Positions 11,293-60,029 of a stretch of 64,000 nucleotides of DNA are shown here, one piece after another (positions within the stretch are counted from its first letter, which is position 1; the number at the start of each line of letters is the position of its first letter). The notes beneath the pieces were generated by a model. That model searched no databases and was not told where the DNA came from. It was given only the letters and a program-made list of their open reading frames with translations. Source of the stretch: Microglena sp. YARC (Eukaryota; Chlorophyta; Chlorophyceae; Chlamydomonadales; Chlamydomonadaceae). The DNA is taken from positions 62,179,858 to 62,243,857 of the forward strand of contig CM039464.1 of NCBI GenBank assembly GCA_022414725.1, written 5' to 3'. The position numbers and the translations under genes are program-made.

Positions 11293-11302
11293 GTACCTGT
11301 GA

Positions 11303-12157: not shown

Positions 12158-12271
12158 TCACAGAGCTTTAACAGTGGCGCCCAAGTCCTTGAGGCCATCC
12201 TTGAAATGAGTTAACATCTCCTCCAACTGTAAGGAGTGCTGCTCCAAGTGCTCTGCCTCGGAGTGGCTCAG
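12158..12271 (-). CDS. Coiled-coil gene, terminal exon e
   Basis: Begins after 'tctcttttcag' with LSHSEAEHLEQHSLQLEE and ends ...TVKAL-stop; 37 codons plus TGA, phase 0. Its 5' part is echoed four or more times on the upstream (higher-coordinate) side only. Confidence 0.65.
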   Translation of the reverse strand: MSHSEAEHLEQHSLQLEEMLTHFKDGLKDLGATVKAL

Positions 12272-12540
12272 CTGAAAAGAGAGATAGGGGAAAGGGGGGA
12301 GGTAAACGGCAGTCATGAATAGCAGTCTGAGCATCCTTGAATGAGTCAAAATCTCCTCCAACTGCAAGGAGTGCTGCTCAAGTGCTCTGCTTCAAAGTGG
12401 GCTCAGCTGAAAGAGGGGGAGAGGAGAAGAGGAAGGGAAACGGCACTGTCAGTATGAGCATCCTTGAAATGAGTCAACATCTCCTCAAACTGCAAGGAGT
12501 GCTGCTCCAAGTGCTCTGCTTCAGAGTGGCTCAGCTGAAA

Positions 12541-12572
<32 letters not shown>

Positions 12573-15500
12573 TAAAACGGGCACTGTCAAGTATGAGCAT
12601 CCTTGAAATGAGTCAACATCTCCTCCAACTGCAAAGGAGTGCTGCTCCAAGTGCTCTGCTTCAGAGTGGCTCAGCTGAAAAGAGAGAGAGAGAGAGGGAG
12701 GGGGGGGGAGGGGGGGTAAACGACACTGTCAGTTATGACGTCCTTGAAAACTGAATCAGAGAGAAAGGCGGGGGGAGGAGGAGGGGGGTAAATCGGCAAA
12801 GGCTTGGCATGTTGTTGTATGGGTAAGGTGATTTTAATCGCTACGGGTGTGGCTCAGCTGCAAAGAGAGAGAAAGGGGAGGGGGGTGGTGGGGTGGGGGG
12901 TAAACGGCACAGCTTGGGCACGTGGTATGGTAAAGGTGCTTTCAATACTTTTGTGTGGCGTAGCTGCAAAATGAGGGGGTAACGTCACGGCTTGATCATA
13001 TGGGTGGGCAGCTTATCTGCAATCTTGATTGGACAAGAGGGGGGAGGGGGGGGGGGGGGAGGGGAGGGAGGGAGGGGGAGGGGAGGGGAGGGATGGGAGG
13101 GGAGGGGAGGGACATGGGAGAGGGGGAGGGGGAGTGGAGGGAGAGGGGGAGAGTGGAGGGAAGAGTGGGAGGGGGAGCTGGGAATGGAATGGGAGGAGGA
13201 AGGGGAGGGGAAAGAGGGGAGTCACAGAGGAGGGGGAAGGTCTTCCACCACTGGAAAGGGGGAGGGGATAGACTGCACCACTGAACAGAAGCAAACAAGT
13301 CCATATGTACTTCTCCTCCAGAACAGCTGGCCCCCTCCACCTCACTCCTCGTAATATGACATGTATTCATGTATGTTACAGTCCAGGGTAGCCAAATAGG
13401 CTTAAAGGGACTTGCCCAACCGTAATAGGAAGGCTTAAAAAGAAAAAAGCACTGATGAACTAAACCCCAAAGAATCGTTAAGCGCCATGGCATGGCATAT
13501 TATTTATTTATCTTATTCAGCACTTACATGGTACTTCTCCAGCATACCATTTTATCCTTCTCCAGGTGCTGTACTACCGAATTTAATTGAATACATAAAT
13601 ATTATCCAGTACGTACAAGGTGCTGTACCACATATTAAATTTAATAAATAAATTAAAAATTGTATTATTCAGCACTTACATGGTACTCCTCCAGCAAACC
13701 ATTTGTAAACTTCTCCAGGGTGCCGCACCACGGTATTAAATTAAATAAAAACATAAACAAACATGCATGAATAATCGTATTCAGCACTCACATTGTACTT
13801 ATCCTTCAGACCACTGTTATGCTTCTCCAGAGTGCCATACTTGGCAATCAACTCTTCCAGGTCGACTGCCAATGCCTTCTTTACTTTGTTCAAGTTGCCG
13901 AGCTCCGTAGACTCCTATAAATACATGCGACACAAGGAAAATGATTAATACATGAATCAATCAATACATGAATGCATAAATGAATTAATAAATAAATACA
14001 TAAAGAAATAAATTGATAAATAAATGAGATACATAAATAAATAAATAAATGAAATACATATCTCATACATAAATAAATGAGAGACATAAATAAATAAATA
14101 AATAAATGAGATACATATCTCATACATAAATAAATAAATAAATACATAAAGAAATAAATTGATAAATAAATGAGATACATATCTCATACATCAATAAATG
14201 AGAGACATAAATAAATAAATAAATGCTGAAATGTATAAATACATAAATAAATATCTTCGTAGTTAAATATATAAAACGTAATTAAATAGTTGTAAATTTA
14301 AATTATCAAGGCCAGCTCGCTTATCAGCGTGTTCTTTTGGTTCTCCAGGTGATTGTGGAAGGGCCAGTTATTAAATGTGATTAAATTCTGTCCAGTTATT
14401 GAATTTAATTAAATTCAACAAAATTTAAATAATCAATGCCAGGTTTTGTCCGTGTGTCCTTTTGACACTGGGTTCAGTGTGTTCATGTAACACAGAGTAA
14501 ACAAGTTAATAAATCAATATCTTTGTAAACTTCTACAAAAATATGCACCACAGGGTAAATAACTAAATAACTAACTAAATAGATAAACAAATAAATAAAT
14601 ATCTTCATAGACTCCTACAAATCCATACACCACGATGATTAGAACCTTAATAGTGAGAACCAGAATAGCACCAGAATTGCACCAGAATAGCATCACAACA
14701 GCACCAGATTAGGACCAGAATGGCACCAGAATAGGACTGAATAGCACCAGAATCGCACCAGAATAGGACCGATTAGCACCAGAATAGCACCAGAATAACA
14801 CCAGAATAGCACCTGAATAACACCAGAATAGCACCAGAATTGCACCAGAATAGCACCAGATTTGCACCAGAATAGCACCAGATTTGCACCAGAATAGCAC
14901 CAGAATAGCACCAGAAGAGCCAATCTCATGCACCACGAGGTGGCCCGCTCAACCTCATGCCTTGGAAGAAGGCGTACTATTTAAATACGTATTCCATTGT
15001 GAGATGCAAAACCATTCAGATGGACGTTCCAACAAGAACAGATGACGACCTTTACGATTATATCAATCTTAACTTCCAAGATATGTCACAATGACACTTC
15101 TAAGGACGTGGGGTTAAGGGAACCAGCTCGTAAGTATGCGATGGACAGGCTTACATCACACCTAGAGTCCAGTTACCATGCCGGTCGACGACCCTCCGTG
15201 TGGGCCCAGGTGACCTAGATGGGGTTCGAACCAGCAACCTGATAAGACCCCGCATCTGCTTCCGTTCGGCCCGGGATCGCTCTACGATAGAGCCATCCCG
15301 TTTCAAACGGGGATATGATAATATATAATATATACAATATATTTATATAATACATATAATATGATAACATAATATATAAAATATACTTATACAATATATA
15401 TAATATGATTATATAATATATACAATATAATTATATAAACATATATAATATGATTATATAATATATATAATATGAATATATAATACATATGATATGATTA

Positions 15501-39735: not shown

Positions 39736-39931
39736 TAGGGGTCGGCAATATGATATCATATTATATCATGTCATCTTATGATATCATATGTTGCCGCCGG
39801 TCTGACAAGGTAACTTTGCCCTGGGGCATCACATCATATGATATCAAATCATATGATTTTTGTATGATATCATATGATATCATACTCGTCTTTGGTCAAC
39901 ATCATATGATTTGCCGTTCCCTAACCATATG

Positions 39932-40295
39932 CTCTAAGTGCAAGCATGCAAACACTACTATTACACTACGCACTTATACACACCGTGCTTGGTCCTAATA
40001 CGCTATGTACTAATTAGCTACCCAGCTAGCACTCTAGCAGATGACGCACGCGCAGCCTTCCTTTTGAGGGTCAGACTCAGTCTTGGCAGTTCCACCTGGA
40101 AGCAAGCAAGGAAAACATTGGAAATTAGTATGAGCTGCCCAGTTTGGGTTGAGGTTTGAGTTGACGTTGGGTTTGGGTTTGGGTTTGGGTTTGTGTGTGT
40201 GTGTGTGTGGGGGGGGGGGGGGTATTGTTTTGGCTAGGCATAGCAGCTTTTAGAAATATGAGGCAGAACCTGGCCAGAAGAAACAAAATTGTCAA
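39932..40295. other. No gene seen; GTTTGG and GT simple repeats
   Basis: Simple repeats at 40,160-40,225; nothing coding recognised. Confidence 0.4.
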
Positions 40296-40930: not shown

Positions 40931-40968
40931 CTAGATCAAGGTTCCCCATTTCCCTCCCCAATGCACCC
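40931..40968 (-). CDS. Ubiquitin-fold gene, candidate last exon 4
   Basis: After 'gaatctgtag', in phase 1, it reads GVHWGGKWGTLI-stop (TAG at 40,931-40,933). It is the last of about ten units sharing 'ctttgaatgtgtag' and 'ggtgcatgggggagg'. No prenylation Cys is present. The true end may be shifted by an error in a G-run or lie elsewhere. Confidence 0.35.
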
Positions 40969-41478
40969 CTACAGATTCAAAGAAAATGCCCCCCCCCCCC
41001 CCCCCCCCCCTCTCGCACGCTCACCACCACACATCGCCCTCCCCAATGCCCCCTACACATTCAAAGAAAATGCCCCCCCCCCCCCCCCTCCTCCCCCCCC
41101 ACTCTCACACCACACCACCCTTTGCCTCTCCCCAATGCCCTACACATTCAAAGAAATGCCCCCCCCCCCCCCCCACACACACTCTCACACACCACCACAC
41201 CCTTCGCCCCTCCCAATGCACCCCAACACATTCCAAGAAGATGGCTCCGATCTACATCCTAGCCCCACCCCCACCCCCCTCCTAACCCCTCTCACGCACC
41301 ACTACCACACACTTCCCCCTCACCTTGAACCCCTACACATTCCAAGATGATGGCCCCGATCTACATACTAGCTCCCTCACACACAGTACCACACCACCAC
41401 CCTTCGCCTCTCCCCCATGCAACCTACACGTTCCGAGAGGATGCCTCCCAATCTACATAGGAGCCCAGCTACCCCCCC

Positions 41479-41518
<40 letters not shown>

Positions 41519-43300
41519 GCAGCCGCCATCAGTACACTTCGCCCTCCACCATGCACCCCAACACATTCAAAGAAGATGCCCCCAATCTACATACCCCCCC
41601 CCCCCCCCCCCCTTCTCACCCCCTCACACGCACCACCACCCTTTGCCCCTCCCCCATGCACCCCAACACATTCCAAGAAGATGCCTCCAAATGTACATAC
41701 TAGCCCCCCACCCCCCCCCAGAACACGCACCACCACCACCACCACCACCACCTTGGCCCCTCCCCCATGCCCCCCTACAAATTCCAAGTAGACGCTCCCA
41801 ATCTACATACCAGACCCCTTCCTCTCCCACAAGCACCACACCACCATTGGCCCCTCCCCCATGCGCCCCAACACATTCAAAGAAGATGTACCCCAACCCG
41901 CTATAAGAAAAGGATCCCCAATCACCTTGAGAGCCTGAGACGGCAGGCTGGCTGGGCTGAACGACAACTAGCATGGTGACAACTGTATCCGGCTTGCTTT
42001 CACTCACCTTGAGAGCCTGAGACAGCAGGCTGGCTGGGCCGAATGACAACTAGCATGGTGACAACTGTATCCGGCTTGCTTCTCTCACCTTGAGAGCCTG
42101 AGACGGCAGGCTGGCTGGGCCGAATGACAACTAGCATGGTGACAACTGTATCTGGCTTGCTTCACTCACCTTGAGAGCCTGAGACGGCAGGTTGGCTGGG
42201 CCGAATGACAACTAGCATGGTGACAACTGTATCCGGCTTGCTTCACTCACCTTGAGAGCCTGAGACGGCAGGCTGGCTGGGCCGAATGACAACTAGCATG
42301 GTGACAACTGTATCCGGCTTGCTTCACTCACCTTGAGAGCCTGAGACGGCAGGCTGGCTGGGCCGAATTACAACTAGCATGGTGACAACCGAGTCCGGCT
42401 TGATTTCGCCCATCTCACGGCGGTAGTCTGCACAGAAACATGGCTCAGGGGCATGAGAGTTCTGTGTGTGTGTGTATGTATGTGTGTTTATGTGTGGTGT
42501 GTAACTGTATCCGGCTTGATTTCACCCATCTCACGGCGGTAGTCTGCACAGGAACATGGCTCAGGGGTCATGGGTGTGCTGTGTGTGAGTGTATATGTGT
42601 GTGTGTGTATATGTGTACGTGTGGGTGTGTGGGTGGTGTGTAACTGTATCCGGCTTGATTTCTCCCATCTCACGGCGGTAGTCTGCACAGAAACATGGCT
42701 CAGGGGTCATGGGTGTGCTGTGTGTGAGTGTGTGTGTGTATATGTGTGTGTGTTTCTGTGTGTGGTGTGTGTGGTGTGTAACTGTATCCGGCTTGATTTC
42801 TCCCATCTCATGGCGGTAGTCTGTACAGAAACATGGCTCAGGTGTCATGGGTGTGCTGTGTGTGAGTGTGTGTGTGTGTATATGTGCGTGTGTGTGTGGT
42901 GTGTAAATGTATCCGGCTTGATTTCTCCCATCTCACGGCGGTAGTCTGCACAAAAACATGGCTCAGGGGTCATGGGTGTGCTGTGTGTGTGTGTGTGGTG
43001 TGTGTATATGTGATTTCGCCCATCTCACGACGGTAGTCTGCACAGAAACATGGTTCAGGGGTCATGGGTGTGCTGTGTGTGAGTGTGTGTGTGTGTGTGT
43101 GGTGTGTGCGTGGTGTGTGTGTTTATGTGTATATGTGTGTGTGCAGCTTGATTACTCCCACCTCACGGCGGTGGTCTGCACAGAAACATGGCTCAGGGGT
43201 CATGGGTGTGCTGTGTGTGAGTGTGTGCGTGTGTGTGCGTTTGTGTGTGTGTGTGTGGGGTGTGTGTATGTGTATGTATGGTGCGTGTGTGTGCGCGCGC

Positions 43301-43347
<47 letters not shown>

Positions 43348-46126
43348 GGGGGCAGGGGGGGTCTGTAGGTCAGACATGGGAGCGCTGTGTGATGTAGAGT
43401 AGACTAAGGAGAATGAGCAAGCAAACTTCAAGAACGAGGTATCAGATTGAAGCATGATATCATGGCAGAGACCCAACGATTACAACAACTACGCTCTGTT
43501 CAATTGGCTCAGGGGTTCAAGTAGCTCAGTCTGTAGGGGGGTTTATTATGGGATGTTTTAGGAACACACAGACAATCCCAGAGAACCGGCAGACTGACAG
43601 ACAGTCAGACAGGGAGAGATATGCATGCAGACTGACAGACAGTCAGACAGGGAACCCAGAGAACCGGCAGACTGACAGACAGTCAGACAGGGAGAGATAT
43701 GCATGCAGACTGACAGACAGTCAGACAGGGAACCCAGAGAACCGGCAGACTGACAGACAGTCAGACAGGGAGAGATATGCATGCGAACAAACAAGTTTAG
43801 AGTGTGAGGTATCAGACTGAAGCATGACTGCATGGCAGAGCCCCACTGATCACAACATCAACTGCGCTCTGTTCAAGTGGCTCAGTTGGTGGGGGGAAGT
43901 ATAAAGGGATGTATTACACAGACAAAAACAACGACAGGCAGGAAGGGATGTGAATGTGAGCAAATAAGTTTCAAGAACGAGGTATCAAACTGAAGCATGA
44001 CTGCATGGCAGAGACCCATCGATTACAGCATCAACTGCGCTTTGTTCCAATAGCTCAGTCTGTACTCAGTAGGGAGATGTACTACATACAAAGACAAAAA
44101 CAGACAACCTGCAGACAGATAGGCAGGTTGAGATGTGTGCAAGTGAACAAACAAGTTTTGAGTATGAGGTATCAAACTGAAGCATGGCTGCATGGCAGAG
44201 ACCCACAGATCACAACATAAACTGCGCTATGTTCAAGTGGCTCAGAGGTCATGGGGGTGCTGTGTGATGTTGAGTTGACTCAGGAGAATGAACAAACGAA
44301 TTTCAAGGACGACTGGAGGAGGTATCAAAATGAAGCATGACTGCATGGCAGAGGCCGCACAGATTGCAACATCAACTGATCTCTGTTCAAGTGGCTCAGT
44401 CGGTACTCTGTAGGGGGATGGACTACATACACAGGCCAAAACAGACAACCGGCAGACAGATAGACAGGTTGAGATGTGTGCATGTGAACAAACAAGTATG
44501 TTACAAGCTCGGTCGGTACTCAGTAGGGAAATGGACTACATACACAGGCAAAAACAGACAACCGGCAGACAGATAGACAGGTTGAGATGTGTGCATGTGA
44601 ACAAACAAGTATGTTACAAGCTCGGTCGGTACTCTGTGGGGGGATGTATTACTGGGTGTATAATGCACAAACAGACAAAAACAGGCAGACTGACAGACCG
44701 GTATAGGTGTGCATGTGGACAAACAAGTTTCGAGTATGAGGTATCAAACTAAAGAATGACAGCATGGCAGAGGCCGCACTGATCACAACATAAACTGGGC
44801 TATGTTCAAGTGGCTCAGGGGTCATGGGGTCGTTGTGTGCTATTGAGTTGACTCAGGAGAATGAACAAACGAAATCCAAGGACGAGGGATCAAACTGAAG
44901 CATGCTAGCATGGCAGAGACCTACCGATCACAACAACTACGCTCTGTTCAAGTGGCTCAGGGGTCATGGGAGCGCTGTGCGATGTTGAGTTGACTCAGGA
45001 GAATGAACAAACGAAATTCAAGGCAAGGAATCAAACTGAAGCATGCCAGCATGGCAGAGACCTACCAATCACAACAACTACGCTCTGTTCAAGTGGCTCA
45101 GGGGTCATGGGAGCGCTGTGCGATGTTGAGTTGACTCAGGAGAATGAACAAACAAAATTCTAGGCAAGGAATCAAACTGAAGCATGCCAGCATGGCAGAG
45201 ACCTACCGATCACAACATCAACTGCGCTTTGTTCCAATAGCTCAGTGGGGATGTATTACTGGATGTATCAGGAACACACAGACAAAAGCAGACAACTCGC
45301 TGACTGCCAGACAGACAGGTAATGATATGCATGTGAACAAACAAGTTTTGAGTATGAGGTATCAAAGGGAAGCATGCCAGCATGGCAGTGCCTCACAGAT
45401 AACAACATAAACTGCGCTCTGTTCAAGTGGCTCAGGGGTCATGGGAGAGCTGTGTGACGTTGAGTTGACTCAGGAGGATGAACAAACGAAATTCAAGGCA
45501 AGGAATCAAACTGAAGCATGCCAGCATGGCAGAGACCTACCGATCAAAACATCAACTGCATCAACTGTGCTTTGTTCCAATACCTCAGTGGGGATGTATT
45601 ACTGGATGTATTACCAACACACAGACAAAAACAGACAACCCTCTGACTGACAGATAGGTAGAGATATGCATGTGAACAAACAAGTTTAGAGTATGAGGTA
45701 TCAAAGAGAAGCATGCCAGCATGGCAGTGCCTCGCAGATCACATCAACTGCAATCTGTCGACGTTCCGCAGTCAGTTGGGGTACGTGATATGAACACGCT
45801 CTAACAAGCTGTATTGGACGCACCTGATAGATGTTTAACGCCTTCACACCACTTCCCACTGAGAATAAGCTTGATATCGCCGGTCTGTTGGGGCACTTCT
45901 TGCGCTAGGGGGCCATCTACGTACATCGAGGGGGCGATCGAACGCATTTTTAAGAGCGAGAGGAAGAAGATATGCGGAAAGACAGGTAGCATCAAATTGC
46001 CAGCTGCTAACCTTTGGGCCATGCTGCAAGCAGAGTCTCCTTCACAGATTCCACCAATGCAGATTCAGAAAAAGTGAAAGGCCCGATGTCGCCATTCGAA
46101 TGCCGAAAGCGCAACTGCACGTTCAT
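40931..46126 (-). CDS. Membrane-anchored ubiquitin-fold protein (MUB/UBL3-like), split gene
   Basis: Exons on the minus strand: 1, 46,012-46,126; 2, 45,824-45,916; 3, 42,332-42,427; candidate 4, 40,931-40,968. Phases 1, 1, 1 agree throughout, giving about 113 residues, normal for the family. Exon 1 encodes MNVQLRFRHSNGDIGPFTFS and VESVKETLLAAWPK, matching the MUB start (LKFRL-x-DGxDIGP, then LKE...WP). Exons 2-3 give GDIKLILSGKWCEGVKHLS and MGEIKPDSVVTMLVVIRP, matching DLKLI-x-GK...TL and G...ITMHVVVRP. MUB/UBL3 proteins are prenylated ubiquitin folds at the plasma membrane that dock partners such as E2 enzymes. The candidate last exon lacks the C-terminal Cys. Intron 3 is made of exon echoes. 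Confidence 0.75.
40969..41905 (-). repeat. Echo array of the exon 4 5' edge
   Basis: About nine units of 75-125 bp, each with a G-rich tract, 'catcttctttgaatgtgt(a/t)g' and 'gggtgcatgggggaggggc'. On the plus strand the tracts are poly-C and (CT)n or (CACC)n. Confidence 0.75.
41906..42331 (-). repeat. Echo array of the exon 3 3' edge (81-bp units, five copies)
   Basis: Each unit has 'aagccggatacag' plus VVTMLVVIRPSQPAVSGSQ and AAG/gtgagtg. Starts lie near 41,921, 42,003, 42,084, 42,165 and 42,246 at an even 81-bp spacing. In exon frame the unit meets TGA right after gtgag. Confidence 0.9.
42332..42427 (-). CDS. Ubiquitin-fold gene, exon 3 (full copy)
   Basis: 32 codons' worth, phase 1 to 1, between 'tttctgtgcag' and AAG/gtgagt: YRREMGEIKPDSVVTMLVVI then RPSQPAVSGSQ. 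It is the only unit holding both halves; the 5' half is echoed on one side and the 3' half on the other. Confidence 0.8.
42440..43200 (-). repeat. Echo array of the exon 3 5' edge (about six copies)
   Basis: Units of 90-140 bp: CA-rich tract, 'acccctgagccatgtttctg', 'tgcag', then YRREMGEIKPDT and 'agttacacac'. Copies near 42,515, 42,645, 42,785, 42,915, 43,020 and 43,150. Confidence 0.9.
43200..43365 (+). repeat. TG microsatellite and poly-G tract
   Basis: (TG)n followed by about 24 G at 43,331-43,352. Confidence 0.95.
43400..45780 (-). repeat. Large composite tandem repeat in intron 2 of the ubiquitin-fold gene
   Basis: About ten units of 120-330 bp with 'gaggtatcaaactgaagcat', 'gcatggcagagacccac' and 'cgctctgttcaagtggctca'. 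Between them lie 'gacagacagtcagacaggg' or 'aaaacagacaaccggcagac' subrepeats. On the sense strand a unit ends 'gatcg/gtaggtctct', so these may be echoes of a minor exon, but none is needed for the protein. Confidence 0.75.
45824..45916 (-). CDS. Ubiquitin-fold gene, exon 2
   Basis: Phase 1 to 1 between 'tacgtag' and TCAG/gtgcgt: GPLAQEVPQQTGDIKLILSG then KWCEGVKHLS. The 95-bp intron 1 before it is ordinary, without echoes. Confidence 0.75.
46012..46126 (-). CDS. Ubiquitin-fold gene, exon 1
   Basis: ATG at 46,126, 38 codons plus one base, ending AAAG/gttagc. Start chosen because family similarity begins right at MNVQLRFRHSNGDIGP. Confidence 0.8.
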
Positions 46127-46529: not shown

Positions 46530-46676
46530 ATGGACGCTCGACCGTCCACTGAGGTGGAGGCAGATCAACCTTCCACCTCGAAAGAGCGTACCGTCGACTT
46601 TAATGACGTCTTCTCACTGCGGCGACCCAAGGATGCAAAGGCCGGTCTGTCGTCTGGCCTGAAGAGCATCGCAAAA
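46530..46676 (+). CDS. DnaJ gene, exon 1
   Basis: 49 codons, phase 0, from ATG to AAA/gtgagt. It ends DAKAGLSSGLKSIAK, a signature found before the hydrophobic region in this J-protein type. No echoes of this exon are seen. Confidence 0.8.
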
Positions 46677-47451
46677 GTGAGTTTTGGCCTCTGAACTGCT
46701 AACCTGTTCCCACGTAGATTTATTGTACTGGGCATTGACCAGTAACTGTCTACCCCCCCCCCCCCCCCCCCCCCCCCCCCACACCAAACCCAAACCAACC
46801 CAACCCAACTAACCCACCAACCCACTCCTATCGTTCTCCCGGTCAGAGCCCGATCCAGTATCCCCCCCCCCCCCTCCCCTCCCTCCAGCTACCTTCTCCA
46901 CCTTGTACCCCATCCAGTATCCTCCTCCCCCCACACTCACCCCAACTCCCCACCCACCCCCCCACCGCACCTCCCACCCCACCCCACCCAACTAGTATCC
47001 CCTTCACCCATGTATTTGGGTCCATCCCCCCCCCCCCCCCCCCCCAACACACACACACCACATCACACACAACAAACACAATTCCCATCCCCTCAAATCC
47101 TGGCCAGGGGGTTGTTGGTGGCCTTGCTGGCCTTGTTGCTGCCGCACCCAGCTCACGACACCACCACCACAGATAGACCACACCATCACCACAGCACACA
47201 CACATGCACACACACAACATACACACACACATAAATACATACACACACACATACATGTATATACATAACACACATACATACACACATACATACACACATA
47301 CGTACACACACTTAAACACACACACACACTTACAACAGCACAAACACATACACATACATACAAGCATACATCATACATACATACATACATACATACATAC
47401 ATACATACATACATAATACCATACATACATACATATAATACATACATACAT

Positions 47452-47490
<39 letters not shown>

Positions 47491-49957
47491 CAACGTGTTG
47501 GTGGTGAACTTGATGGCCTTGTTGCTACCCCCCACACCCCACCCCCGCCCCCTCCCCCTCTCCCAACACACACACGCACACACACACATCACCGACACCT
47601 GATCAGGGGTGTTGTTGTTGGCCTGCTGCTTTTTTGGCCTTGTCGCTACCCCCCACCCCCCACCCCACCCCACCCCCTACTCTCCCCAACACACACACTC
47701 TCCCCCCACCATCCCCCCACCTGAGCTGGGTGTTTGTCGGTGGCCTTGATGGCCTTGTTGCTACCCCCCCCCCCCCCCCCCTCCCTATCCCAACACACAC
47801 ACACACCATCCCCTACCTGATCAGGGTGTTGTTGGTGGCCTTGTTGCTGCCACCTTCTATCCCCAATATCACTACCACTCCCCACTCCACATACATATAC
47901 ACACACAATCCCCCCCCACTCACCTGATCAGGGTGTTGTTGGTGGCCTTGCTGGCCTTGTTGCTGCCCCCCCCCCCCCCCCCCCCTATCCCCAACACACA
48001 CACACTACCATCCCCCCACCTGATCAGGGTGTTGTTGGTGCGCCTTGCTGGCCTTGTTGCTGCCCCCCCCCCCCCCCCCCCCCCCCCCTATCCCCAACAC
48101 ACACACACCATCCCCCCACCCTGATCAGGGTGTTGTTGGTGGCCTTGCTGGCCTTGTTGCTGCCCCTACCATTGGTGCTCATCAAGACGGGGCTATGGGA
48201 TTTGCCAAAGGACTGGCCACAGGTAGGCCACACTGGAGAGCACTTCAAATTATAATACAAATACAAATTCAAATTCAAATCTAGTAGGCAAATCTAGTAG
48301 GTAGCACACCCACCTTAAATTCAAATTGAACTTTTCCATAGGACTGGCCACAGGTAGGCAACACTGGAGAGCACTTCAAATTCAAATTCAAATTCAAATC
48401 TAATAGGCAAATCTAGTAGGTTGCACACCCACTTCAAATACAAATTCAAATTTGACTTTGCCATAGGACTGGCCAATGGAATGTAACACACCCACTTCAA
48501 ATTCAAATACAAATTCAAATATAGTAGGCAAATCTAGTAGGCAGCACACCCACTTATTCGTGGTGTCAGCATATGGGCCAGATCGGCCTAGGGAGTCAAA
48601 CAAGGAGGAGAGATGGCTGATAACACATAAGTTATAATACAACTTTGAACACAAATTTAAATGCAAATCTAACTTTGCCAAATATAGTAGGCAGCACACC
48701 TGCAACACACACACTTCAAATTCAAATACACATTCAAATCTAGTAGGCAACACATACTTTTCAAATTCAAACTCAAATTCAAATACACATTCAAATATAG
48801 TAGGCAGCACTCCCACTTTAAATTCAAATACAAATTCAAATACAAATCTAACTTTGCTAAAGAACTGGCCACGGGTAGGCAACACACCCACTTCAATTTC
48901 AAATTCAAATTCAAATATTGTGGGCAAATCTAGTAGACCACACACCCACCTCAAATCCAAGTCTAGTAGGCATCAGCAACACTCCCCCCCCCCCCACCCA
49001 CCACCCACACAGACACACACACCACCACCACACACACACAGGGGTTGTGGGTGCGGTGGTCCTTCCAGTCACCGGCGTGGCTGTTGGTGTTGTTCATATG
49101 TTTTTGCAGCATCAGCAACACTCCCCCCCCCCCCCCCCCCCCGACACACACACACCACCACCACACACACCAGGGGTTGTGGGTGCGGTGGTCTTCCAGT
49201 CACCGGCGTGGCTGTTTGGTGTTGTTCAAATGGTCCGCGCATTCAGCCAAACACTCCAGAGTCTTTCGTGCAGCAAAATGAAGGCAAGATATGGGATGGA
49301 GGTGAGAGAGAGCTGGGGGGAAGGTGGTGGTGGGGTGGGGTGGGAGGTGGTGGTGGTGGGTGGGTGTGGGGGGGGGAGGTGGGGGGGGGGGGGGGGAGGT
49401 GTGTGTGGGGGGTAAAGAACCATATATACGGAGTATTGTGTGCAGCATGAAGGCAAGATTTGGGATGAGGTGAGAGGGAGCTGGGGGAAGGTGGTGGTGG
49501 GGGCTATAACCCCATGTGGCGGATTGTTTGTAATGTGGTAGTGGGGAGGGGGTGGGAGAGATGGGTGGGAGGTGGTGGGGGGCTAAACCCGTGTGGGCGG
49601 ATTGTTTGTAATGTGGTAGCTGGGGAGGGGGTGGGAGAGTTGGTGGGAGGGGGGTTAGGAGGGGGAGGGGTGGGGGGGAACAAACACCCCGGAGTCTTTT
49701 TCAGCAAGCAGCAAAATGAAGGCAAGATTTGGTATGAAGGTGAGAGGGAGCTGGGGGAAGCTGGGTGCGTGGGGTATGTGTGAGGTGAGAGGGAGCTGGG
49801 GGAAGCTGGGTGCGTGGGGTGTGTGTGAGGTGAGAGGGAGCTGGGGGAAGCTGGGTGCGTGGGGTGTGTGTGAGGTGAGAGGGAGCTGGGGGAAGCTGGG
49901 TGGTGGGGTGTGTGTGAGGTGGGTGGGGGGGAAGGGGGCTGCGGGGAAGGTGTGTGT

Positions 49958-49988
<31 letters not shown>

Positions 49989-52148
49989 GCAGGGGGGAGG
50001 GATGAACCCTGTCCAGCAACACGATATAATGAGGTGATATGTAGGGATAGGCCAGTATGATATGATATATGATATCAAATGTCATCATATGATATCATTA
50101 CAATGCCGGCGGTCTCGGACTTTGGCCTAACGGATCGTCCTTGATTTTTGAGGATATCATATGATATTACTCGTCTTGGTCAACATCAATATGGATTTTT
50201 GGATATATATGATCATCATACTCGTTGTCCTTCGGTCAATCATAAGGTTTGTATGATATCATATGGATTATATGATATCATACTCGTCTTGGTCAACATC
50301 ATATGATTTTTGTAATGATATCATATGATATCATATGATATCTACTCTCGTTTGGTCCCATAGCTGTCCTTGGTCAACATCATATGATTTTTGTATGATA
50401 TCATATGATATCATATGATATCATACTCGTCCTTGGTCTACATCATATGATTTTTGTATGATATCATATGATATCATATGATACTCGTCCTTGTCAAGCA
50501 TCATATGATTTTTTTTGTAATGATATCATATGATATCATATGATATCATACTCGTCTTGGTACATCATATGTTTTTTTGTATGATATCATATGATATCAT
50601 ATGATATCATACTCGTCCTTGGTCAACATCATATGATTTTTGTATGATATCATATGATATCATATGATATCATACTCGTCCTTGGTCTACATCATATGAT
50701 TTTTGTATGATATCATATGATATTATATGATATCATACTCGTCCTTGGTCAACATCATATGATTTTTGTATGATATCATATGAGATCATATGATATCATA
50801 CTCGTGGCCTTGTCTACATCATATGATTTTTGTATGATATCATCTGATATCATATGATATCATACTCGTCCTTGGTCAACATCATATGATTTTTGTATGA
50901 TATCATTATGATGATCATATGATATCATACCGTCCTTGTCTAGGCCATCATATGATTTTGTTGTTTGTATGATTCATAATGATATTATATGTATTCATAC
51001 TCGTCTTGGTCAATATGATGATCATACTCGCTTGGTTGCTCTTGGTCTCATGATGGATTTTTTTGTAAAGATATCGATGAGTCATGGTGTACATGCTCGT
51101 GTTGCATATGATGTTGTTTTTGGATTCATATGATATCTATGGGGTGGTGGATATCTACTCGTCCTTGGTTATCATATATATGTATGATATCATATGTCAA
51201 TATGATATCATACTCGTCCTTGGTCACATCATATGATTTTTGTGTGATATCAATATTGAATATGATATCATACTCCGTCCTTGTTTTCATAATGATTTTT
51301 TGTGTGTCCTTGGTCATTCGTCCTTCGCACATCATATGATTTTTGTATGATATCATATGATATCATACTCGTCCTTGGTCAACATCATATGATATCATAC
51401 TCGTCCTTGGTCAACATTATATGATATCATACTCGTCCTTGGTCAACATTATATGATATCATACTCATCCTTGGTCAACATCATATGATTTGCCGTTCCC
51501 TAGTGATATGGGATGAGGTGAGAGGGCGGCGGTGAATTGTTTGTTGTGTTGTGGGAGGAGGGGGGGTAGGGCACACATGCCCCCGTTCCCACACACACAA
51601 ACACACCACACATGCTGGTTCCCCACCACGGGCACCCACCACCCCTCCACACATGCACCCTCGCGCCCACCACCACCACACACTCACACACACAGACACA
51701 CACAAAACACACATGCCCCCCCAGCCCCCCCACACAAACACACCACACATGCCTGCCTCCCACCACCACCACCACCACCACCACCTCCACTCATGCCCCT
51801 CCCCCCCCCCCTACCACCACACCACCACACACACTCACACACACACTGCCACCACACACACGCACGACACACTCTCCCCCACCACCCACACCACCACCCT
51901 GAGCAAGACAAGCGGGAGTTGGTGGACAAACCTGACGGTTCAAATGGTTGCTGCCTCAACTTGTGGGGCACACATGCCTTTCACCACCACCACCACACAC
52001 AATCGCCAGGAACACCCACAGACTCTCACACACACACATGCCCCCTGCCCCCTTCCCCCCACCCCCCCCCCCCCCCGCCCCATGCAGCACCACCTCCCCA
52101 CCACACACACACACACACACACACACGAACACACACACACACACACAC

Positions 52149-52180
<32 letters not shown>

Positions 52181-55099
52181 AGCGCCACACACAAGCCAGC
52201 ACACCACCACCGAACCTGACGAGCAGGACAAGCTTGGAGTGGGTGGACAAACCGCGACAGTTCAATGGTGGCCCAGGCTTTCCACACATCTACCCACCAC
52301 CTGTCCAGCACCATTGCCTACACGAAGCTTTCAACACACACCACACATGCCTTTTAACACACTCCACACACACATGCCTTTTAACACCACCTCCACCATG
52401 CCTTTCAACACCACCACCACACATGCTTTTTCCATAAAATGCCTTTCAACACCACCTCCACACATGCCTTTCAACACCACCTCCACACACAAAGCAAACA
52501 AACTCACCACACATGCCTTTCAACACCACCACCACACATGCCTTTCAAACACCGAGACTCCACACATGCCTTTCAACACCTCCACACAACCACCTCCACA
52601 CATGCTTTCAACACTCCACCTCCAAACATGCTTCACACCAAGCACAATGCCTTGTCCACACATGGCTTTCACACGCCACCACCAGAGGACACATGCCTTT
52701 TAACACGACGCACCAAAGCATGCCTTTCAACACCACCACCAGACACATGCCTCCCCCCCCACGCCACATCAACGACAACCTGCACTCCAGACACACACAC
52801 ACACACACCCACCAACTTTCACACCACCCCCACCCATTCCCATGAGCAGGACATGCGTTAGTGTGTGGACAAACTGATGATTCAATGGTGGCTGCCTCCA
52901 ATTGTGGGTCACACATGCCTTTCACCACCAGACACAATCGCCCACAAACTCCCACAGACTTCCCACACACACATGCATCCCTGCCCCCCCCCCCCCCCCC
53001 CCTCTCACACCCTCCCCCCTCTCCCTCTCCCCCCCGCACCCACCCCCCCCACCCACCCTCACACACACGAGCAGGACAAGCGAAGTGGGTGGACAAACCC
53101 AATGGTTCAATGGTGGCTGCCTCCAACCTTGGGGACTGATGCCCACCACCACCACCACCACACACACACACACAAAAGCCTAACACCCTCTCCCCCCCCC
53201 TCACACCCTCCCCCTCTCCCAATCCCCTTCTCCCCCACCCCACCCTTCTTCCACCTACACACACACGAGCAGGACAAGCGAGAGTGGGTGACAAAAACCC
53301 GATGGTTCAATGGTGGCTGCCTCCAACCTTGGGACTGATGCCCACCACCACAGCCCACACACACACACACAGAAGCCTACATAACTCGCCCCCCCCCCCT
53401 CGCCCCCCCCCCTCATACACACACGAGCAGGACAAGCGAGGAGTGGGTGGACTAAACCCGAGGGTTCAATGGTGGCTGCCTTCCAACCTTGGGACTGATG
53501 CCCCCCACACCACACCACCACACTACACACACAAAAGCCTACACCCTCCCCCCCCCCCCCCCCCCCCACCCCCCCCCCTCACACACACGAGCAGGACAAG
53601 CGAGAGTGGGTGGACAAACCCGATGGTTCAATGGTGGCTGCCTCCAACCTTGGAGCTGATGCAACCAACATGTTCAAGAAGGCGCGATCTACTGGAGTGG
53701 ACTACTACGAGGTTCTAGGGGTGAGACTGGAACCTTAACTTAAACTGGCCACTAGCTCCAGCCAGCAATTTGGTTATGGGGGGGGGGGGGGGGGGTGCGA
53801 AGGGAGGGGGTGGGGAGACCAATGGGGAGGGGTAAGGGGAGAGTGTGCACTAACGTTTTCAAAGAAGGCGCGGTCCTAACTGGAGTGGAGGACTACTCTT
53901 GAGGTTCTTAGGGGTGAGACAGAGAGGGGGAAGGGGAGTAAAAGGGGGGAGGGGGTGAAAGGGGACGGGGAGGAACTAAAAGGAAGGGATAGGGGAAGAC
54001 TGAAAGGGAAGGATTGGGGTAAAGGGGGAGCTGATGTAAAAGCATGTTCAGAAAGGTTGCGATCTACTGGAGTGAATTACGACGAGGTTTCTAGGGGTGA
54101 GATTGAGAGGGGTAGGGGGAGGGAGGGGGAGGGGAGGATTAAGGGAAAGGAAGGGGGAAGGGGAGACTAAAGGGGGGGCAAGGGTAGGGGTAAGGGGAGA
54201 GAGCAACCATCATTTTCAAGAAGGCCCGGTTTACTGGCGTGGACTACTATGGAGGTTCTAGGGGTCAGGGGTGAGAATGGGGGGGGGAAGGGGGGAAGGG
54301 GGAAAGGGGAGGAAAGGAAGGAGATGGGGGGAAGGAGAGACTTAATGGGGGCAAGGGTAGGGGTAAGGGGAGTTGATGCAACCAACATGTTCAAGAAGGC
54401 GCGATAGATACTGGAGTGGGACGACTATGAGGTTCTAGGGGTTAGGGGTGAGAATGGGGGGGGGAAGAGGGGGAAGGGGGACGGGGAGGACTAAAAGGAA
54501 GGAGATGGGGGGAAGGAGAGACTTAATGGGGGGCAAGGGTAGGGGTAAGGGGAGCTGATGCAACCAACATGTTTCAAGAAGGCGCGATATCTGGAGTGGA
54601 ACTACTTTAGGTTTCTAGGGGTGAGACGAGAGGGGGAGGGGGAGTAAAGGGGGGAGGGGGGGGGAGGGGACGGGAGGACTAAAAGGAAGGAGGGGGTACG
54701 GGGAGCTTGATGTAACAGCATGTTCAAGAAGGTGCGATCTACTTGGAGTGGACTAACTACGAGGTTCTAGGGGTGAGAATGAGGGAGGGGGGGGGGGGGG
54801 GTAAAAGGGAGGAGGGGGTGAAGGGACAGGGAGGACTAAAAGGGAGGAGAGGGGTACGGGGAGCTGATGTAACAAGCATGTTCAAGAAGGTGCGATCTAT
54901 TGGAGTGGATTACTACGCAGTTCTAGGGGTGTGGACTAAAGGGGGAAGGGGTGGGGGTAATAAGGGGTGAGGGTGAGGGGGGGGTGGGCGGGGGGGGGGG
55001 GGGGGCGGGGGGCGGGGGAGTAAAAGGAAGTGCCATAAGGTGGAGTGGATTACTACGAGGTTCTAGGGGCGGACTAAGGGGGGAGGGGGGGGAGTAAAA

Positions 55100-55130
<31 letters not shown>

Positions 55131-58100
55131 GTAAACAGAGGCCCAAAGGTTGGGTGGATTACTAAGAGGTTCTAGGGGTGAGACTACAAATTGAACTTGA
55201 AGTAGAAAGAGGGTGGAAAGGGGAGGACTAAAAGGGACCATGGAGGCAGTGGGTACCGGGAAGGGGAGGACTACAGGGAGGGGAAGGGGGGAAGGGGAGG
55301 GGAGACTAAAGAGAAGGGGAGGGGGAAGGAGCTGATGCAGTCACATGTTTTAGTAGGCGGCGGTCCTACTGCACTTTTTTTAATCTGAAAGTGGGTTTCT
55401 TCTAGCTTACTGGGTTTAGGCTTCCTCCAGGGACAGCGTTTTAGTGCTTTATATACAGGGATCGGCAAAATGATATCGTATGATATCATGTCATCATATG
55501 ATATCATATGATGCCGGCGGTCTGACTAGGTAACTTTGGCCTGCGGCATCCAAATCAATAATGATATTAATCATATGATTGTGTGTTTGATCATCATATT
55601 TTAATATCGTACTCGTCTTTGTCCAACATATATGATTTGCCCGATTCGGTGCTATTTATATACAAATAGTAGCTTTTTTTGTAGCTTGTAAGGGCCATTG
55701 AGGGCAATGATTTTTGTGTATAGCTTTTTTATAGGCGATGGTTTTCGCTAAATCGGGGTCAAAAGTAGCATCAGGGCGTATAATGCGTATAGTACAAAAT
55801 ATAAAATGCCTGGTCTACAACTGAATGTGACATCCTATGAAAGTTCTAGGGGTGAGAATAAGGGGAAGAAGGGGGGAGGAGGGGAGGAACTCAGAGAAGG
55901 AGGGGGGAGAGGGGAGGACTAAGGGAGGGAAGGGGGTAGGGTTACCTAATGGAATGGGTAGGGGGCGGGGAAGGGGAGGGAGAACTACAGTAAAAAGGGG
56001 GGAAGGGGGGGAAGGAAGGGGAGGACTGAATGGGAGGGGAAAGGGGGTAGGGTTGACTTATAGATGGGGAGGGGGGAGGGGAGGGAGGACTACAGTAAAA
56101 GGGAGGGGGGGATGGGAGGACTAAAGGAAGGGAAAGGGTTAGGGTTGACTAATAGAATGGGGAGGGGGGAGGGGAGCGAGGACTACAGTAAATGGGGAGG
56201 GGGGGAGGGGAGGGAGGATACAGAGAAAGGGGAGGGGGGGAGAGGGGAGGACTAAAGGGGGGGAAGGGGTTTCGGGGTTTACTAAGGGAATGGGGAGGGG
56301 GGGGGGAGGGACACAGAGAAAAGAGAGGGGGGAGGGGGGAGGACTCAAGGGAGGGAAGGGGTTAGGGTTTACTAAAGGGAATGGGGAGGGGGGAAAGAGG
56401 GGGGAGGGAGGACTACAGTAAAAGGGGGGGGGAGAGGGGAGGACTAAGGAGGGGAGGGAGGTGAGGTTGACTATGATGGGGAGGGGGAGGGGAGGGAGGA
56501 CTACAGTAAAAAGGGAGGGGAGGGAAGGGGAGGACTAAAGGGGGGAAGGGGTTTAGGGTTACTAAAGGAATGGGGAGGGGGGAGGAGGGGGCACAGAGAA
56601 GGGAGGGGGAGAAGGGGAGGACTAAAGGGAGGGGAAGGGGTTAGGGGTGACTTAGAATGGGGTAGGGGGTAGGGGAGGGAGGCACTACATACAGAGAAGG
56701 GAGGGGGAGAGGGGAGGACTAAGATGGGGGGGGAGTTAGGGTTTCTAAAGGAATGGGGAGGGGGGGAGGGGAGAAGCAAGTTAACATGTTTCAAGAGGGA
56801 CGGTCTACTGAGTGGACTAACTATGGGGTTATAGGAGGTAAGAATAAGGGAGAACGTGAAGGGAGGTGAGGGAGGGGGGGGGGGGGACCCAAAAGGAAGG
56901 GAATAGGGGAGACTGAAGGGAGGAGGACCTAACAGGAAAATTGCATCCCTATGAGACCCCCCCCCCCCCCTGCACCCCCCCCCCACAACAACACACCTCA
57001 GGTCTACCTCACCGCACACAACATACACACACACACGCACGCACACTCCCCATCACCCCACCTACCCCACCACACACACACCAGGTTACAAAGAAGCCAC
57101 CCCTGAAACAAAATCATGAAGGCCTATAATTACGTGCAGAAAGAAAGGGGGCGTCCCGACAAGACCACTCACGCACCACCGCATCCCCCATACCCCCCGC
57201 CCCCCCCGCCCCCCACCCCAGGTTGCGAAAGACACGCACCCTGAAAAATCAAAAAGGCCTATTCACGTGCCAGAAAGAAAGGGTCATCCCGACAAGAATC
57301 AACACAACCACACACACCAGACACACACATACCCTCAACACCGTACCTACCCTCCACCCCCAGGTTACAAAAGAAGCCACCCCCTGAAGCAAATCAAGAA
57401 GGCCTCCTACTTAAACAAGGAAGTGGCATATCCTATAAGAACCCCCCTCCCACTCCCAACACACAACACCTCACACCCCAACCTCACCACCACCCTCACC
57501 CCACGCACACAACACAGGTTACGAAAGAGCACCCCTGAACAAATTCAAAAAGGCCTATACCCTACTAGCCCAAAAAATTAAAGGGGGCCATCCTGAAGAC
57601 CCCCCCCACCACCACACACAATCACAAACACACACACCACGCACGCACAGCCACACACACACACACACACTCACTCTCACCCCCCCCCCCACCACCACAC
57701 CCCACGCACACACACTCACACACACACATCTACACACCCACACACCTCCCTCCCACCCACTCACCCCACCACCTCCACCCACCTCCACCCACACACACAA
57801 ACACGCACGCACACACACACACAACTCCCCCCCCAACACACACAACACCACCTCCACATCACCCCACACCTCACCTCCCCGCCCCCACACACACACACAC
57901 CACAACACGCACACACACACACACACCTCACCCACCCCACCCCACCCCACCCACCTCCCACCCCACTCACACCCGCGACACCTCCCCCCCCCCCGCCCCC
58001 CCCCACCCCCCACACACACACACACACGCACACAGCACAAACCTCCCCACACCCAACAATTCACACACAACCTCCACTCACCACCCCCCACCTCCCCCAC

Positions 58101-59734
58101 CACCAACCACCACCAACCACACACCACGTTACCCACACACACTGTGCACACGCTCCACTCACACACACACCTCCCCCCCCCCCCCCCCCCCCCCCCCCCA
58201 CACACACAATCACCTCCCTCCCCCCACACACACACCTCCACTCACATCTCACCCCCACTCACACACACAACTCCCCCCTCCCCCCCCCCCCCCACACACA
58301 TCACCTCCCCCCACACACATCCTCCACTCACCCAGCAACAACCTCCCCCCCCCCCCCCGCATTCACACACACACATACACACACAACTCACGGACCATGC
58401 ACCTCCCCCCGTGCCCCACACAAACACAGCACACGACGCACACACCTCCACTCAACCAATCCATTCTCCCCCCCCCCCCCTACACACACACACACGCACA
58501 CACACACAGGTTAAAAGAAGCCAACCGCCTGAGCAATCAGAAGGCCCACTACCTTCAAGCAAGCAGTGGCATCCCCTAATAAGTCCCCCCTTAACACCAC
58601 ACACACACACACACACACATCCACACAGCACACACACACACACACAACACAGCACCTCCACTCACCCACACACCTCCCCCCCACCCCCCCGCCACATACA
58701 CACATCAATACACACACACTCACCCATGCACCTCCCCCCCACCCCACCCCCCACCAGCCACACACAACACACCTCCACTCAACCAACACATCTCCCCCCC
58801 CCCCCCTCCCACCCACACACACCAGGTTACAAAAAAAGCCACCCCTAGCAAATCGAGAAGGCCTACTACCTCAAGCAAGCAAAGTGGCATCCTAATAAGT
58901 CCCTCCCTTACACACACACACACAAAACACCTCCCCCCACACACACCTCCACTCACCCACACATCCTCCCCCCACCCCACCGCCACCTCACACACACACA
59001 TCACACACACACCCCCACACACCTCCCCCCCCCCACCCACACCCACACACCCCACAACACCCCCTCCACTCACCCCCAATCTCCCCCACACTACACACCA
59101 GGTTACAAAAAGAAGCCCACCCCTGAACAAATCAAGAAGCCTACTCCTTCAAGCAAGAAAAGTGGCATCCTAAATAATGCCCCCCCCCCCCCCCCGCTAC
59201 CCACACAACACCAACACCACACAACTCAACACACCCCCACACAAAACCTCCCCCCTCCCCCCCCTCCCCCCCCCCCAACACACCGAGGTTACAAAAAAAG
59301 CACCCCTGAACAAATCAAGAAGGCCTACTACCTTCAAAAGCAAGAAAGTGGACATCCCTAAATAAGACCCCGCCCCCCCCGCCCCCTACCCCCGCCACAC
59401 ACCCACACCTCCACTCACTCCCACACACCTCCCCCCACCACCCACACCAGTTACAAAAAGAGGCCCCCTGAACAAATCAAAGAAGGCCTATACCTTCAAG
59501 CAAGAAATGGCATCCCTAATAAGACCCCCCCCCCCTTACCCACACACACCACACACCTCCATCACCCACACACTCCCCACCCACCCCAACACCACCAGGT
59601 TACAAAAGAGGCCACCCCTGAACAAATCAAGAAGGCCTACTACCTTCAAGCAAGGAAGTGGCATCCCGATAAGAACCCAGACGACGCCGGTGCCCACGAG
59701 AAGTTCCAGAAAATTGGGAAGAGGCATATCAAAG
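46530..59734 (+). CDS. J-domain (DnaJ) protein gene, 5' part, continuing toward the gap
   Basis: Exons: 1, 46,530-46,676; 2, 48,129-48,222; 3, about 49,174-49,301; 4, 53,592-53,720; 5, 59,599-59,734. The protein starts MDARPSTEV, then FSLRRPKDAKAGLSSGLKSI (residues about 30-48). A Gly/Ala/Val-rich hydrophobic part follows (GVVGGLAGLVAAPTIGAHQD, FAKGLATG, VVGAVVLPVTGVAVGVVQ), then EGKIWD, QDKREWV and the J domain from DYYEVLG (exon 4) through ATPEQIKKAYYLQARKWHPD (exon 5), with HPD intact. J proteins stimulate Hsp70 ATPase and hand over clients. The hydrophobic part suggests membrane association (inference). A C-terminal region after the J domain should lie beyond the gap. Exons 3 and 5 contain small indels. 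All internal exons are flanked by echo arrays. Confidence 0.82.
46750..47500 (+). repeat. Poly-C, CA and CATA microsatellites of DnaJ intron 1
   Basis: C-runs at 46,754-46,780, 46,862-46,875 and 47,027-47,046, then (CA)n and (CATA)n at 47,180-47,490. Confidence 0.93.
47100..48120 (+). repeat. Echo array of the DnaJ exon 2 5' edge (seven copies)
   Basis: Units near 47,107, 47,493, 47,599, 47,721, 47,817, 47,921 and 48,018. Each is 'acctgatcag' (or close) plus 'ggtgttgttggtggccttg' 'ctggccttgttgctgcc', followed by a C-run and CA repeat. The copy always stops at the same place in the exon (...LVAAP). Confidence 0.93.
48129..48222 (+). CDS. DnaJ gene, exon 2 (full copy)
   Basis: Phase 0 to 1, between 'cctgatcag' and ACAG/gtaggc: GVVGGLAGLVAAPTIGAHQD then GAMGFAKGLAT. 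Eighth and last of the 5'-edge units; its 3' edge is echoed downstream. Confidence 0.82.
48240..48980 (+). repeat. Echo array of the DnaJ exon 2 3' edge and CAAATT repeats
   Basis: Clear copies of '(a)ggactggccacag/gtaggc' lie at 48,345-48,365, 48,460-48,475 (site lost) and 48,855-48,878. Weaker 'ctagtaggca(a/g)cacaccca' units recur every 90-130 bp between 'aaattcaaattcaaat' tracts. Confidence 0.8.
48980..49170 (+). repeat. Echo of the DnaJ exon 3 5' edge with C/CA repeats
   Basis: One copy at 49,040-49,095 reads VVGAVVLPVTGVAVGVV after 'cacacacag' with a clean frame, then a C-run and CA repeat lead to the full exon. Confidence 0.85.
49174..49301 (+). CDS. DnaJ gene, exon 3 (full copy, with small indels)
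   Basis: Reads VVGAVV, PVTGVAV, VVQMVR and, after a slip, TPESFVQQNEGKIWD before gtgaga. Relative to the echo at 49,040 a C is missing and a T is extra, and a further slip lies near 49,235. Errors or a decaying copy. Confidence 0.65.
49302..50033 (+). repeat. G-rich repeats with echoes of the DnaJ exon 3 3' edge
   Basis: 'gaaggcaagatttgggatga' + g/gtgagagg near 49,448 and 'gaaggcaagatttggtatga' near 49,720, then four 43-44 bp units 'gtgagagggagctgggggaa' 'gctgggtgcgtgggg' (49,739-49,915). Confidence 0.85.
50034..51510. mobile_element. hAT-like MITE, family 2, with expanded internal satellite
   Basis: Perfect 8-bp duplication GTGATATG at 50,034-50,041 and 51,503-51,510. The element starts TAGGGATAGGCC and ends GCCGTTCCCTA. 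The inside is about 15 irregular units (70-80 bp) of 'atatgatatcatatgatatc', 'atactcgtccttggtcaaca' and 'tcatatgatttttgt'. It lies in DnaJ intron 3, inside an exon 3 echo. Confidence 0.9.
51505..53588 (+). repeat. CA/C-rich echo array of the DnaJ exon 4 5' edge (six copies)
   Basis: Copies at about 51,901, 52,219, 52,843, 53,069, 53,267 and 53,425. Each is CA-rich tract, 'acgag', then CAGGACAAGCGAGAGTGGGT (QDKREWVDKPDGSMVAASNL), running into 'ggcacacatgcc' or 'gggactgatgcccaccacc'. A subrepeat (c)acatgcctttcaacaccac fills 52,330-52,760. Confidence 0.92.
53592..53720 (+). CDS. DnaJ gene, exon 4 (full copy; start of the J domain)
   Basis: 43 codons, phase 0 to 0: QDKREWVDKPDGSMVAASNL, GADATNMFKKARSTGVDYYE, VLG, then gtgaga. 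DYYEVLG is helix I of the J domain. The only unit with both halves. Confidence 0.85.
53845..56900 (+). repeat. G-rich echo array of the DnaJ exon 4 3' edge (about 11-12 copies)
   Basis: Copies near 53,855, 54,030, 54,205, 54,377, 54,555, 54,712, 54,868, 55,030, 55,140, 55,335 (cut), 55,838 (short) and 56,790. Each carries variants of (GADATN)MFKKARSTGVDYYEVLG/gtgaga and then GGGGAGG-type sequence. Further (GGGGAGG)n units without an exon piece fill 55,860-56,780. Confidence 0.92.
55448..55662. mobile_element. hAT-like MITE, family 2, short copy
   Basis: Duplication TTTATATA at 55,448-55,455 and 55,655-55,662. The element begins CAGGGATCGGCAAAATG and has the ATGATATCAT interior. Right end is diverged. 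Confidence 0.7.
56955..59596 (+). repeat. C/CA-rich echo array of the DnaJ exon 5 5' edge (nine copies)
   Basis: Copies at about 57,084, 57,219, 57,359, 57,515, 58,507, 58,823, 59,099, 59,284 and 59,447. Each reads 'ccag' + GTTACAAAAGAGGCCACCCC (VTKEATPEQIKKAYYLQ...KWHP) and changes into 'aataagaccccc' and a C/CA tract. Most have indels. Confidence 0.93.
59599..59734 (+). CDS. DnaJ gene, exon 5 (HPD-containing part of the J domain)
   Basis: Starts after 'aacaccaccag' with VTKEATPEQIKKAYYLQARK, then WHPDKNPDDAGAHEKFQKIG. One extra A at 59,718-59,721 breaks the frame just before the expected EAYQ; the echo at 59,790-59,870 lacks it. 5' splice site AAAG/gttagt. Confidence 0.82.
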
Positions 59735-59779: not shown

Positions 59780-59872
59780 TATCACAATGCAAGCCAAGAA
59801 AGTGCATCCCGAGAGAACCCAGAACGCCGATGCCCACCGAAGTCCAGAAATTGGGAGAGGCATATCAGGTCA
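59780..59872 (+). repeat. Echo of the DnaJ exon 5 3' edge
   Basis: From 'caagccaagaaagtgcatcc' (LQARKWHP region) to 'gggagaggcatatcag/gtcagt'. It has lost a few bases but keeps the correct frame at the very end. Confidence 0.8.
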
Positions 59873-60029
59873 GTCATGTTTATCATTTGCTGCAAGTGTG
59901 CGGAGTGCAAGTCGTTATCCAGTTGGAAATAAGCAAGTAAGTTACACATTACAAAGATGCGGGTGGAGGTTTGAGGGAGCCATCAGCCCCGCTTGCTTTG
60001 CACTGGGGGCTAAGCACCGAAAAAACTGT

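Follow-up and report, generated by a model that had tools for sequence, protein, structure and literature searches.

Tandem arrays of exon-edge copies, splice sites included, around coding exons of a DnaJ-type gene and other genes in the green alga Microglena sp. YARC

Introduction

Intronic minisatellites and other variable number tandem repeats (VNTRs) are built from head-to-tail units that derive from a founder by amplification, with variants shared among the copies. The arrays described here resemble them in all of these respects. They lie in a 64,000-nucleotide stretch of the Microglena sp. YARC genome (contig CM039464.1, positions 62,179,858 to 62,243,857 of the forward strand), which we call the window and within which all positions are counted, and were first described around exon 4 of a DnaJ-type gene. 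Unlike the unit of an intronic VNTR, the repeated unit includes a splice site together with part of a coding exon, and the working exon ends the array. We refer to the copies as echoes of the exon edge, on the acceptor side or the donor side of the exon.

The closest precedents are tandem repeats that cross exon-intron borders. In potato, intron gain in the RdRp gene is ascribed to a tandem duplication of genomic DNA spanning an intron-exon boundary, and the tandem copy holds an intron end, a 3′ splice site and an exon start, as the algal copies do (PMC4974935). There, a single duplication gave rise to a new intron that is used. The algal echoes, in contrast, reach 11 copies per junction, occur on both sides of exons, are apparently unused and lengthen an existing intron. 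Human genes, too, are reported to have internal tandem repeats at their exon-intron boundaries, where minisatellite units overlap the boundary and bear on splicing (PMC2812944). As described there, those units measure about 30 bp, are repeated about four times and often form novel introns or are retained in exons, whereas the algal units span 81 to about 180 bp, comprise an exon edge and its splice site, and occur at 11 of 16 junctions. A literature search returned no named system of this kind and no account of exon-edge copy arrays at most junctions of a gene. The preliminary description of this locus, which knew of no such named system, was right to that extent, but border-crossing tandem repeats had already been published. 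They are probably the product of minisatellite-type tandem-repeat growth in once-short introns, passed over by the spliceosome through exon definition.

Results

The echo arrays of DnaJ exon 4 are real. The gene lies on the plus strand, and its concatenated exons encode a J domain (PF00226, E 2.1e-20). Exon 4 (53595..53720, +), with 126 bp or 42 codons, is the sole unit with both edges. Its start had been placed at 53,592; an acceptor at cag|GAC, three bases further inside, fits better because it keeps the homolog spacing (GKIWDE..PDG, 17 residues, in P0001, P0002 and P0006; judged by eye). Upstream, the acceptor-side array (51901..53481, +) comprises the six copies previously noticed, at 51901, 52219, 52844, 53067, 53265 and 53423. 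Each contains the acceptor region and 44-50 of the 50 exon bases queried; the nearest three extend to exon base 53,670, the farthest to 53,676 with gaps. Downstream, the donor-side array (53858..56843, +) repeats the 3′ edge in 11 of 11 copies, one of them interrupted by an insertion. Exon base 53,652 is the starting point of six intact copies and of the split copy's left half; the first copy (53,858) starts at 53,653, the last (56,790) at 53,667, and those at 55,041 and 55,151 at 53,693. This array had been credited with about twelve copies, because the insertion cuts one echo into two halves (55,328-55,371 and 55,820-55,857) that had been counted separately. Echo scores ranged from 34 to 105; in composition-matched shuffles, 20 for each edge, the maxima were 27 and 31.

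The aligned echoes bear out the earlier statements that the repeat units straddle exon-intron borders and that only exon 4 itself unites both halves: none of the 17 partial copies is a whole exon with both splice sites, which also disposes of exon duplication and mutually exclusive exons as explanations. The two families overlap only at ~53,652-53,676. That upstream copies lack the exon end and downstream copies the exon start is equally true, yet any tandemly duplicated unit of less than exon length produces this pattern automatically.

Echoes are confined neither to exon 4 nor to the DnaJ gene. They occur at 11 of 16 tested junctions in three genes, with 1 to 11 copies per echoed junction and 56 copies altogether (33 acceptor-side, 23 donor-side). 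Nine of the junctions belong to the DnaJ gene, six to a minus-strand gene for a membrane-anchored ubiquitin-fold protein (MUB; PF13881, E 7.7e-21) and one to a putative terminal exon of a third gene (12,271-12,158). Visible tandem repeats were the reason for including the MUB gene and the third exon, so the proportion of 11 in 16 is biased and is not an estimate for the genome; the generality of the pattern rests on one window. Five extra rows under the MUB acceptor query were donor units that stop short of the acceptor and were left out of the counts.

Several features tie the copies of an array to one founder. The copies run head to tail, their exon-side break points are common within arrays, and tandem arrays in the window were also reported by TRF. 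Substitutions were shared among copies beyond random placement in all seven arrays tested (P 0.0125 to 0.0005), for instance in 42 pairs versus 5.9 expected at exon 5 and in 40 versus 1.2 in the MUB donor array. The shared break points and substitutions exclude independent sequencing errors. Moreover, likeness to the exon rises with nearness to it (mean Spearman coefficient 0.59 over six arrays, permutation P 0.0002). Taken together, these observations point to one straddling event per array and later amplification, so that the repeated straddling duplications invoked in the preliminary description are not needed. The arrays also have a relative age: an inserted element with TAGGG...CCCTA ends, internal ATATCAT repeats and a perfect 8-bp target duplication, GTGATATG, sits within the exon 3 donor array (50042..51502, +; left end approximate), which is therefore older than the insertion.

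The echoes seem to preserve an earlier sequence state of the exon. Where an exon differed from all echoes of an array, the difference fell on a third codon position in eight of nine cases (binomial P 0.001; one of the nine, at 53,654, depends on the alignment), and distinct substitutions were distributed 27/32/54 over codon positions 1/2/3 (P 0.0025). At one site where MUB exon 3 encodes serine (S), threonine (T) is encoded in five of five donor and four of six acceptor echoes. T is also the residue of the homologs P0073, P0075 and P0076, and S that of P0074.

As far as these data show, the occurrence of echoes at junctions calls for no process that seeks out borders. Non-simple 58-bp windows with a copy scoring at least 50 within 6.5 kb accounted for 64% in the DnaJ gene (n=148) and 72% in the MUB gene (n=151), as against 0% in a copia-like region (n=110), 15% in a LINE-like region (n=211) and 25% elsewhere (n=743); the copia-like and LINE-like labels are a reading of open reading frames (ORFs) and not the result of a family search. 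Among 15 junctions, nine scored at least 50 and ten at least 34, the latter to be compared with 77% and 74% of the non-simple windows of the two genes at a score of 34. The junctions are thus no more repeated than the surrounding introns. In addition, by a simple geometric model, one junction is crossed by 59-99% of the tolerated duplications of 80-200 bp if introns measure 94-300 bp. A border-seeking process is accordingly not required.

A junction-directed origin, in which splice-site tracts rich in C or G, or structures there that are linked to transcription, actively seed duplications at the border, therefore appears unlikely. Several arrays do break at such runs. At the exon-side break point of three of six acceptor arrays, a short exonic C run adjoins the C tract of the intron, and the exon 4 donor array breaks where the exon sequence GGAG meets a G-rich intron; these runs may have had a causal role in the duplication. 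Introns 3 and 4 also have G-rich 5′ halves and C-rich 3′ halves. However, the repeat density described above does not set junctions apart, in short introns the geometry by itself makes most events straddle, and arrays restricted to introns exist as well, e.g. at 40,952-41,811 and 44,394-45,217.

The G-rich and C-rich intron ends were also considered as an 'intron zipper'. With 200-nt ends, predicted folding energies were −125 kcal/mol for intron 4 and −179 kcal/mol for intron 3, and −42 and −45 kcal/mol for introns 2 and 1. Yet −128 kcal/mol was also reached when the 5′ end of intron 4 was combined with the 3′ end of intron 1, and the zipper was rejected as a composition effect.

The splice sites of the echoes are largely retained. 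Fifty-four of the 56 copies include the splice site; those at 47495 and 48457 leave the splice dinucleotide uncovered in the alignment. In a test for which 54 of the 56 copies were aligned, the splice dinucleotide was kept in 48 of the 52 echoes that cover it versus 82% for other dinucleotides (P 0.036, the copies not being independent). The data give no indication that echo splice sites have been selected against. Their use would nevertheless be damaging: in all 47 of the 56 echoes examined for this effect, use of the echo as assembled breaks the protein, 44 times by an in-frame stop and three times by a frameshift, although base errors could alter single cases. Since the sites are retained and their use would be harmful, the choice would have to go by position, in favour of the innermost pair around the exon. 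The earlier contention that the splicing machinery must single out one whole exon among many retained AG and GT sites is thus upheld. Two simple rules fail or mislead. The acceptor echoes are transcribed ahead of the real acceptor, so that 'first made, first used' cannot resolve the acceptor arrays, and the shortest pairing across each intron would link the last of the donor echoes with the first of the acceptor echoes. Judging from this anatomy, pairing across the exon would be the only simple rule that picks the right sites.

Ratchet sites of recursive splicing were rejected as an explanation, because AG|GT occurs at only one of the six acceptor arrays, that of exon 5; the others read AG|GG (exons 2 and 3), AG|GA (exon 4), AG|AC (MUB exon 3) and AG|CT (terminal exon).

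Could the arrays be functional, e.g. as decoy splice sites by which splicing is regulated or buffered? The slight excess of retained splice dinucleotides, with the reservation made above, would be in line with this assumption. On the other hand, the exon and intron parts of the units have diverged equally (90.4% and 92.2% identity), copy number varies from 1 to 11, five junctions manage without any echo, and the protein was disrupted in every case of echo use examined. We consider such a function quite improbable. An assembly artefact, false copies produced by noisy long reads that were mis-joined or stuttered at repeats, is highly improbable: exon 3 is frame-broken while its echo reads cleanly, a run of N starts at 60,208, the echo alignments contain 158 indels (76 in homopolymers) beside 260 substitutions, and a gene model from the same genome is not letter-identical to the window over exon 4, but copies that share substitutions, fixed differences that follow codon position, an array interrupted by an element with its target duplication, and a stretch resembling a donor echo in a second same-genome model led us to reject stutter as the main cause. 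Copy numbers as assembled may be wrong.

The two gene models are EukProt proteins. P0003 (gene23567-9091_t) is identical to the translated DnaJ exons 1 and 2; the single mismatch in the exon 2 comparison is a residue belonging to exon 1. P0072 (gene23566-9090_t), the next identifier after P0003, is 100% identical to the MUB gene and contains the donor-echo-like stretch, which is absent from its homologs P0073-P0076. These matches and the adjoining identifiers show that both models come from the same genome as the window. Over exon 4, P0003 has no letter-for-letter match with the window, presumably because it derives from another assembly version. The top named homolog of the DnaJ gene is from Sanguina aurantia (59% identity), and the named relatives of the DnaJ and MUB genes include Sanguina aurantia, Chlamydomonas schloesseri and Tetrabaena socialis.

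The remaining DnaJ junctions, all on the plus strand, are arranged as follows. Exon 1 (46530..46676) has no detectable echo of its donor edge. Exon 2 (48129..48222) is preceded by seven acceptor-side echoes (47105..48066) and followed by three donor-side echoes (48332..48880; copies at 48332, 48457 and 48853). Exon 3 (49174..49301), whose frame is broken as assembled, has one acceptor-side echo with an intact frame over the stretch (49033..49091) and three donor-side echoes (49431..51524; copies at 49431, 49684 and 51505), the last of them past the inserted element. Exon 5 (59599..59734; 3′ end approximate, with base errors) has nine acceptor-side echoes (57079..59499) and one donor-side echo (59790..59882). 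The DnaJ exon queries matched nothing in the window outside 45-61 kb, and copies of an introner or transposon were rejected for this reason. The inserted element has ATATCAT-rich relatives with the same TAGGG...CCCTA ends at 39733-39915 and 55426-55641; we take all three to be akin to small hAT-type elements.

In the MUB gene, on the minus strand, exon 1 (46126-46012) and exon 2 (about 45916-45824) are separated by an intron of 94 bp that holds no array. Exon 3 (42332..42427) has echoes at both sides, six on the acceptor side (42510..43183) and five at 81-bp spacing on the donor side (41919..42300), and is followed by the last exon, exon 4 (40037..40096). No echo was found of the exon 1 donor, the exon 2 acceptor, the exon 2 donor or the exon 4 acceptor. 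TRF also reported intron-only arrays in introns 2 and 3. About ten G-rich units at 40952-41811 (−) in intron 3 show no visible MUB exon edge. A long array of 78-141 bp units at 43480-45700 (−) in intron 2, in which no exon edge was found, partly resembles the branch-point region before exon 3. The putative terminal exon of the third gene (12158..12271, −), without a family match above the cut-off, has three full acceptor-side echoes and one short one with 12 exon bases (12357..12865, −).

Elsewhere in the window, three TTCATGCATGTTCAG|GTAAGC-like junction copies and two GCATGCAG|GTGGGTGCG-like copies at 23460-23880 (−) are possibly donor echoes of another gene; the translation of this region gave no family match. 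A 51-bp unit and a 38-bp unit lie side by side at 9829-11294 in about fifteen copies each. ORFs at 532-3888 and 26000-34000 read, by eye, as copia-type polyprotein and LINE-like proteins, and two ENA proteins are related to one of the ORFs at 92% identity. Scans of viral contigs with the intron element and the retroelement protein found nothing, and the window contained no match in an Rfam gathering scan and no tRNA.

Discussion

If minisatellite-type growth accounts for the echoes, a tandem duplication in a short intron would cross one splice site and copy either the intron end with the exon start or the exon end with the intron start. The gene would survive, as one copy is still attached to the remainder of the exon. 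Starting from this first echo, unequal exchange or slippage would expand the array, while its older copies would shift farther from the exon. The AG or GT of an echo, normal as it looks, would be ignored, with the spliceosome taking the innermost acceptor-donor pair. Both the duplication chemistry and the short ancestral introns are here presumed.

Several points weigh against this reading. At the 1-3 kb scale, the geometric model lets only 7-21% of duplications straddle a junction, so that the explanation needs introns that were short at founding. Five of 16 junctions have no echo, three of them in the MUB gene beside a 3.4-kb repeat-rich intron or the 94-bp intron. In the exon 4 donor array the distance trend is small (Spearman coefficient 0.18). 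The C-run break points are few and were read by eye, with exact joins at CCCC in five of seven copies at exon 2, at CTCC in the single copy at exon 3 and at CCC in four of nine copies at exon 5. The third gene is without family support, and it supplies four of the nine fixed differences in a frame chosen as the open one; without it, four of five fall on third positions. That exon definition and not intron definition operates at these exons is something we infer from the arrangement of the sites, and some use of echo sites is conceivable. Short introns are the ground on which intron definition has been argued for Volvox and Chlamydomonas (PMC4378016). The cassette-exon share in C. reinhardtii is given as 22%, closer to multicellular plants, in another survey (PMC2397502).

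The arrays thus look like the outcome of an ordinary process, minisatellite growth, with an unusual consequence, in that exons come to lie among repeats of their own edges. The echo arrays help to account for the deviating automatic gene models P0003 and P0072. They reveal a simple path of intron lengthening in which old exon sequence is retained for comparison. A wider generalization, tentative and open to considerable doubt, is that introns in this alga generally grow from copies of their own junctions, stacking decoy acceptors upstream and decoy donors downstream of exons. Local splice-site sequence would then be almost uninformative and the innermost pair would be chosen, which would amount to genome-wide exon definition in a green alga whose relatives have been assumed to use intron definition, with the echoes as a fossil record of older exon sequence. 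If the echoes are as inert as they look, the spliceosome ignores dozens of authentically flanked AG and GT sites in two small genes, and the arrays form a natural experiment that sets exon definition against intron definition.

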